From contig JAHDIE010000013.1 in NCBI GenBank assembly GCA_020630955.1, positions 1 to 64,000 on the forward strand: 64,000 nt of DNA, read 5' to 3'. Position numbers and translations under genes: made by a program. The stretch's first letter is position 1, and the number at the start of each line of letters is the position of its first letter. Source of the DNA: Saprospiraceae bacterium (GTDB taxonomy: Bacteria; Bacteroidota; Bacteroidia; Chitinophagales; Saprospiraceae). Positions 42,587 through 44,133 of this stretch are shown one piece after another. Below the pieces are notes generated by a model, which had not been told where the DNA came from, made no database searches, and saw only the letters and a program-made list of their open reading frames with translations.

Positions 42587-43198
42587 TTACTTTGTAGCAA
42601 TTCCTTGGATCGGCTCATAAAGAGATCCTATTCCTTTGAATGGTTTAGGATAAAAATATTCCGAATTCTCAAAAGACGAGTTTTCAATTAAATTCTCAAT
42701 GTCTCGAGTTAAGTTGCAACCACAGGCAATACTTTTATTTACTCCATTAAGCAATTTTTGATATCTTCTTATCCTAGCAATTCTTGAAAGGCCATGTTCC
42801 AGAAAATAATATTTTCCAAGTGGTTTCAAAACTCGGTAAATTTCTTTGAGTACTTGAGCAGGTTCTTCGACAGAGCAAAGTAGACCAGTAGTAACCACCG
42901 TATTAAAAGAATCCTTTTCGAATGGTAAATCTTCCGCAACACCAATATGCCAATTAATTAAAATAGAATTCCTTTCACCCTTTTTCATAGCAATAGATTG
43001 CATTGCTCTTAAAGGCTCTATGGAAGTCAAGTGATTTATTCTCTCCGGATAGTATGCAAGATTAGAACCGGTACCAATTCCTATCTCTAATATATCATCT
43101 TGTACATCTGCTAAATTAGACTTTCTCAGAGTAGCCATTTCCTTTGGCTCAGTATGATCAAGAATCAACGGAAATATATTGTCGGAATAAAAGCTCAT
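42587..43198 (-). CDS. SAM-dependent methyltransferase, METTL7/TMT1-like
   Basis: 'DILEIGIGTGSNLAYYP' motif I, 'NTVVTTGLLCSVEEPAQVLKEIYRVLKPLGKYYFLEHG', C-terminal 'GCNLTRDIENLIENSSFENSEYFYPKPF'. Confidence 0.85.
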   Translation of the reverse strand: MSFYSDNIFPLILDHTEPKEMATLRKSNLADVQDDILEIGIGTGSNLAYYPERINHLTSIEPLRAMQSIAMKKGERNSILINWHIGVAEDLPFEKDSFNTVVTTGLLCSVEEPAQVLKEIYRVLKPLGKYYFLEHGLSRIARIRRYQKLLNGVNKSIACGCNLTRDIENLIENSSFENSEYFYPKPFKGIGSLYEPIQGIATK

Positions 43199-43199
43199 G

Positions 43200-43649
43200 T
43201 TATAAATCGATTTCTAATTCATACGCTTTAATCATTTCTATGGCATCTTCAGAACCTGAAATTTGTAAAGCAAAGCCTTTGTTAAAAGGTAGAATTGAAA
43301 CATCAAATTTGAAAAAAGGACAGCATAATCTTTCAATCATCATATGCTCTAACACAGATTCCAACAAATTGGGTTCGTCATTAAAATAAAAGATGATCCC
43401 ATTTGAATCCTCTTTTCTCTTTTCAACTTTAGAGAAGATCGTTTTTTTTAATTCTTCTTTCCGAATATTTAAATCTTCCGGTATTAAACTACACTGTACA
43501 ACTCCATGAAATATTTGCTTATGACTTTCCCATGAAATCGGAATAAATGCGGTGCTATCTGAAGGGATTGAAAATTTCTCATAGTAATAACCTGAAACCA
43601 AAAAAAAAGCAAGAATTATCCAACCCAATCCCAAAATTATATTCTTCAT
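43200..43649 (-). CDS. Small membrane-anchored protein with an ERLCCPFF motif
   Basis: 149-aa ORF with N-terminal hydrophobic segment and 'MMIERLCCPFFKFDVSILP'; 1-nt gap to the methyltransferase gene. Confidence 0.75.
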   Translation of the reverse strand: MKNIILGLGWIILAFFLVSGYYYEKFSIPSDSTAFIPISWESHKQIFHGVVQCSLIPEDLNIRKEELKKTIFSKVEKRKEDSNGIIFYFNDEPNLLESVLEHMMIERLCCPFFKFDVSILPFNKGFALQISGSEDAIEMIKAYELEIDL

Positions 43650-43676
43650 TACATCAGTGATTTGATTTAAGAATCA

Positions 43677-43710
43677 CAAAGATAAACCGTGGAGTATAGT
43701 CAACGGTCAA
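43677..43710 (-). promoter_or_regulatory. MerR-type promoter/operator: TTG -33, 23-nt spacer with 22-bp dyad, TATCTTTG -7
   Basis: Minus strand TTG-ACCGTTGACTATACTCCACGGTT-TATCTTTG; dyad ACCGTkGAsTATAsTCmACGGT at 43686-43707. Confidence 0.75.
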
Positions 43711-43737
43711 GGGTTTTCTTAACTTTATTGAAAAAAG

Positions 43738-44133
43738 ATGTTGATTCGAGAAATATGTAAGAAAACTGATCTGTCAAAAGATACCATACGATTTTATGAA
43801 AAGAAGGGACTATTAAAAGTTAACAGATCAAAATCTGAGTATAATAACTATAAAGAATATAATGATGAGCATGTTGAAACATTGTTACTTATAAAAAAAG
43901 CCAAACGTTTTGGATTTACATTAAGTGAAATTGGCAGTCTTCTGGAATTGGTAAACAACAATCTTGCTACATGTACAACTCTTAAAATGATGGTTAATAA
44001 TAAAATCTCGGATATAGATAAAAGAATTGCTGATCTAATTGATATGAAAAATATAATATTAACTAGTCTTTCAAATGCAGAAGAAATATGCTTTGCCAAT
44101 ATAGAAAGCAACAATTGTAAGCAACTTAATTAA
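43738..44133 (+). CDS. MerR family transcriptional regulator (metal-responsive type)
   Basis: 'IREICKKTDLSKDTIRFYEKKGLLKVNRSKSEYNNYKEY' winged HTH; cysteines C79, C118, C127 around the dimerisation helix. Confidence 0.9.
   Translation: MLIREICKKTDLSKDTIRFYEKKGLLKVNRSKSEYNNYKEYNDEHVETLLLIKKAKRFGFTLSEIGSLLELVNNNLATCTTLKMMVNNKISDIDKRIADLIDMKNIILTSLSNAEEICFANIESNNCKQLN

Follow-up and report, generated by a model that had tools for sequence, protein, structure and literature searches.

A probable MerR-type operator fills the spacer of a Bacteroidota promoter

A 22-bp dyad that occupies the spacer between TTG and a TAnnTTTG -7 element in a Saprospiraceae genome very probably belongs to an operator-promoter under the control of a MerR-type metal(loid) sensor, which would activate transcription by untwisting the spacer. 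The dyad lies in an 88-nt gap between two divergent transcription units, a merR-type gene on one side and genes for a Cys-Cys protein and a methyltransferase on the other. All coordinates refer to the window, i.e., the whole 64-kb stretch of DNA that was analysed. The relevant features are:

43710..43677, minus strand: whole promoter block, TTGACCGTTGACTATACTCCACGGTTTATCTTTG (from the sequence)
43708..43710, minus strand: TTG, a -35/-33-like element in the context CCCTTGACC (sequence; orthologues)
43686..43707, minus strand: predicted MerR-type operator dyad ACCGTTGACTATACTCCACGGT, 22 bp, 9 of 11 pairs (symmetry; orthologues)
43677..43684, minus strand: -7 element TATCTTTG (TAnnTTTG; T, A, T, T, T, and G kept in 10/10 orthologues)
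43720..43727, plus strand: -7 element TAACTTTA (TAnnTTTA) of the probable merR promoter (sequence; most closer orthologues)
43738..44133, plus strand: merR-type regulator gene, 131 aa with Cys79, Cys118, and Cys127 (Pfam, profiles, structures)
43200..43649, minus strand: first gene of the operon, 149-aa membrane-anchored Cys-Cys protein with a CCPFFKFD motif (ten loci)
42587..43198, minus strand: second gene of the operon, class I SAM methyltransferase (1 nt behind the first gene)

Read from 43710 to 43677 on the minus strand, the block consists of TTG, ACCGTTGACTATACTCCACGGT, a single T, and TATCTTTG. The dyad starts right behind TTG, its end is separated from the -7 box by 1 nt, and TTG-N23-TATCTTTG is an exact match. 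Both the TTG-(23 nt)-TAnnTTTG arrangement and the near-perfect 22-bp palindrome with two mismatched pairs (43707..43686), as reported in the initial annotation, were recovered from the sequence. The annotation had also assigned the promoter to the TTTG/TAnnTTTG architecture. This holds for the downstream box, whereas the upstream element reads CTTG, i.e., TTG without the full TTTG. In sigma-70 hexamer notation, the promoter is TTGACC-N20-TATCTT, again with the 22-bp dyad filling the spacer. A sigma-70 scan of the region yielded fewer sites than its shuffles, and a sigma-70 hexamer promoter was rejected.

When the 88-nt intergenic region was dinucleotide-shuffled 20,000 times, 1.8% of the shuffles contained a 22-bp dyad with at least 9 of 11 pairs anywhere and 1.6% contained TTG-N18..25-TAnnTTTG, but a dyad within such a promoter was never obtained (0 of 20,000). 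A search of the window's own genome that allowed up to 3 mismatches revealed no second copy of the operator, and the regulator is therefore probably local. If the -7 box spans -12 to -5 (PMC9723704), the transcription start is predicted near 43672, and the leader would be about 23 nt long.

On the plus strand, TAACTTTA probably represents the -7 element of the merR promoter. The DNA 19-22 nt upstream of this box falls within the dyad, so that bound MerR should repress its own gene. The merR leader expected from the TAnnTTTA box is only about 6 nt long.

Conservation of the promoter block in orthologous loci

Scanning genomes with the Cys-Cys protein revealed relatives in Saprospiraceae/Chitinophagales, and 10 orthologous loci were picked by gene content alone (Cys-Cys gene and divergent merR). 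The MerR proteins of these loci share 37-67% identity with the MerR of the window. The 34-nt promoter block shows a mean identity of 90% across the 10 loci, compared to 63% for the merR-side flank and 41% for the leader. TTG itself is found in nine loci, with TAG in its place in L015, and the TTG-to-TA distance is N23 in all ten. The bases T, A, T, T, T, and G of the -7 box are invariant, while both n positions vary; six fixed bases and two free positions thus make up the TAnnTTTG signature. The dyad retains 7 to 10 of its 11 pairs, with very little variation in the central TATA and at most edge positions. A distinct version, ACCTTGGAGTATACTCCAAGTT, is found in L029, where 10 of the 11 pairs match. 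The initial annotation had named conservation of the dyad in orthologous loci as a check on its reading, and the reading withstood it.

Both L015 (TAG) and L056 (ATA) have lost the -33 TTG but retain the dyad and the -7 spacing. At a Lewinella locus (L032:1711-2880), a transposase-like ORF interrupts the Cys-Cys gene, and the promoter and merR are intact.

Spacing and promoter class

In Bacteroidota, the -33 element is weak and variable in its spacing (PMC7366714, PMC2483708) and is dispensable at some promoters (PMC2483708). Calling the promoter over-spaced therefore leans on a modest enrichment of N19. The spacer census was too sparse in 64 kb and in 392 kb, and 1.13 Mb of the own genome gave a weak peak, with TTG at N19 from 7 of 117 intergenic TAnnTTTG boxes compared to 2.2% in genes. 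In tandem gaps of the same genome, 51 TAnnTTTG boxes were found in sense and 30 in antisense orientation. The annotation had placed the spacer at the long end of the range with a consensus of about 19. N23 is indeed at the long end, beyond this modest N19 peak.

The likeness to Bacteroidota primary-sigma promoters (TTTG/TAnnTTTG) lies in the -7 element, which is present in the window and invariant in all 10 orthologues. The locus differs from them in its TTG-TA distance of 23 instead of about 19-20, in CTTG as the upstream element, and in the dyad that fills the spacer. TTTG at the usual -33 spacing was not found in the promoter; CTTG at N23, as opposed to about N19, is expected if the promoter is a MerR target. 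It is possible, though rather doubtful, that Bacteroidota MerRs correct a larger spacing defect than those of sigma-70 bacteria, with TTG-N23 against an N19 optimum (+4, not +2/+3) and a primary sigma factor unlike sigma-70, and that remodelling differs in detail. In that case, L015 and L056, which lack TTG but keep the dyad and the -7 spacing, would indicate that MerR is able to stand in for part of the -33 contact.

The regulator and the operon it is predicted to control

The neighbouring gene codes for the winged-HTH and MerR-DNA-bind domains of the MerR family (Pfam MerR_1, 1.1e-15; MerR-DNA-bind, 5.4e-14). The closest solved structures are CueR, MerR, and CadR, and the nearest NCBIfam profiles are CueR, ZntR, MerR, and CadR-PbrR. 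The best score against these NCBIfam models was 87.9 bits, below their equivalog cut-offs of 143-168, and we therefore did not file the regulator under any of the four names. Relatives found in a plasmid search were all <40% identical among the matches listed. All of the 12 homologues compared have Cys79 and Cys118, and ten of them have Cys127. The protein thus has the Cys at about 77-82 and the two C-terminal Cys that characterise the metal-sensing MerR subgroup (MerR/ZntR/CadR-PbrR); in MerR proper, these are Cys82, 117, and 126 (PMC9478572).

The Cys-Cys protein has a single N-terminal membrane helix. Searches of Pfam, NCBIfam, PDB sequences, and PDB folds gave nothing usable for it (model pLDDT 77). 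Its distant relatives are found in ars operons with ArsR, arsM, arsC-like or ACR3 and YnfA genes, and in L015 the operon order is MerR, Cys-Cys protein, MerT/MerF-like membrane protein, YnfA, and ArsR. Among the orthologous loci, the methyltransferase gene is retained only in L021. Judging from gene content and the Cys triad, the inducer is likely a thiophilic metal(loid), and the operon probably serves metal(loid) sequestration or detoxification. The Cys-Cys family, which is uncharacterised, is thereby indicated as a likely component of metal(loid) defence.

Members of the Cys-Cys family (43200-43649 in the window, L006-L020, L053, and L054) repeatedly stand beside ars genes in Bacteroidota. 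They share the pattern CxLT...RK...GyxfxF...ErxCCxFFxFxLxI...LxxtG, for which there is no Pfam or NCBIfam model.

Alternatively, the regulator could sense a non-metal signal, such as redox or electrophile stress, via Cys79/118/127. Its relatives NmlR and SoxR, both weak NCBIfam matches, respond to such signals, and a methyltransferase as the product of the second gene would fit as well. We nevertheless consider this unlikely, given that a Cys at 79 combined with two C-terminal Cys spaced by nine residues makes up the MerR/PbrR/ZntR pattern (PMC9478572) and that relatives of the Cys-Cys protein are encoded in ars operons and next to a MerT/F-like gene.

Proposed mechanism of activation

At PzntA, the dyad begins right behind TTG and ends 1 nt ahead of TA. 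The locus resembles ZntR/PzntA and MerR/PmerT in this placement of the dyad, in the 20-bp hexamer spacer, and in the adjacent MerR gene with a Cys triad. It differs from both in that TAnnTTTG replaces the -10 hexamer, the operator sequence is another one, the targets are a Cys-Cys protein and a methyltransferase rather than a P-type ATPase or merTPA, and Cys79 and Cys118 are 39 residues apart, not 35. CueR/PcopA is similar in its profile (TIGR02044 is the most similar one, 5.4e-25, below cut-off) and in the edges TTGACC...GGTTTA, but the regulator described here has a divalent-type Cys79, its dyad is 22 bp long, and the operon has no copper gene. Judged by sequence, the operator and its register are the general ones of MerR systems, and the -7 box is the part that differs. 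The initial annotation had proposed that MerR-type activation was transferred to the Bacteroidota promoter architecture. The dyad, its register, the over-spacing, the adjacent merR with its Cys triad, and the conservation all speak for such activation at a promoter with the Bacteroidota -7 element, though not for a transfer as such. The operator is in the general MerR/ZntR register, and the -7 box alone is different.

MerR regulators act at 19-20 bp spacers, where the DNA is bent and under-twisted (PMC8113463, PMC10028694). From the anatomy, conservation, and fixed geometry of the promoter, the Cys triad, and the single genomic operator, we infer the following course. A dimer of the 43738-44133 product would occupy the dyad that separates TTG from TATCTTTG. 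As long as no inducer is present, these elements would be about 3-4 bp too distant and off-phase, so that the primary sigma factor could not use the promoter. A thiophilic metal(loid) bound at a Cys79'/Cys118/Cys127 site formed across the dimer would cause MerR to bend and under-twist the spacer. The primary sigma factor could then read TTG and TATCTTTG together, RNA polymerase would open the promoter, and the Cys-Cys membrane protein and the methyltransferase would be switched on, while the same bound dimer would overlap the merR promoter and repress merR.

MerR could also act purely as a repressor that covers the promoter and leaves it upon metal binding, as ArsR-type repressors do, with no untwisting involved. 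Some Bacteroidota promoters can do without the -33 element (PMC2483708), and the absence of TTG from L015 and L056 would agree with this. However, a plain repressor would not need a fixed N23 and a 1-nt gap between dyad and -7 box, whereas activation of an over-spaced promoter predicts just such a geometry, which is found in 10 loci and with different operator sequences; repression alone is thus distinctly improbable. A constitutive promoter that contains the palindrome by chance or for unrelated reasons is scarcely credible, since, even though the 64-kb window contains 23 22-mers with 9 of 11 pairs, the block, its spacing, and the partner genes are conserved in 10 loci, which refutes this explanation at the level of conservation.

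Comparable promoters at other loci

Few genomes of the class (11 of 192) encode a metal-type MerR. Several of the MerR loci with Cys triads in the phylum have TTG-N23-TAnnTTTG over a different, mercury-like dyad (L058, L059, L062, L063, L068, L077, L078, and L098). These loci were selected partly by the TTG-N23-TAnnTTTG pattern itself, and most of the sites also hold TATTAT at N20, which makes the N23 reading not unique (L078 is unambiguous); they are therefore weaker evidence than the orthologues. An order-wide, spacing-neutral pattern scan returned mostly chance matches; just three loci, all of them already known, were clearly real. Outside this promoter type, the same register was found in a cyanobacterial plasmid relative (ACTGTGGAGTATACTCCATAGT, followed by a TACGCT box) and at proteobacteria-like CadR sites with a sigma-70-like box. 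The layout noted in the initial annotation is thus present at the locus but not peculiar to it, since other Bacteroidota MerR loci show the same one.

The recurrence of the layout in distant relatives suggests that in Bacteroidota the MerR switch works with an unusual type of promoter. Its mechanism is established, and the novelty lies in the class of promoter on which it acts here. In the open-licence literature, we found no description of a MerR dyad in a TAnnTTTG promoter, and a search for TAnnTTTG together with MerR returned one unrelated review. MliR of Bizionia, a MerR-like regulator, has been described without a metal site or operator analysis. The untwisting model for MerR was derived from sigma-70/sigma-A promoters with TATAAT-like -10 boxes, and conserved natural TAnnTTTG promoters at N23 make it testable with a different primary sigma factor. 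The fixed N23 set may also help to mark the -33/-7 distance that is optimal in Bacteroidota and, in a phylum for which genetic tools are scarce, could be used directly as a source of metal-inducible promoters.

Regulators with a single C-terminal Cys that are related to the metal-type MerRs have TTG-N20 promoters. Such MerR-like proteins were found in L148, L152, L154, L060, L088, L102, and L104, near a divergent promoter that reads TTGTAGGTT...TAnnTTTG with an N20 spacer. Five loci (L145, L146, and L156-L158) in genomes assigned to Bacteroidia encode CadR/MerR-type regulators whose operators are proteobacteria-like and are combined with sigma-70-like boxes; four of these loci lie in one genome (G789), reflecting either recent transfer or bin contamination.
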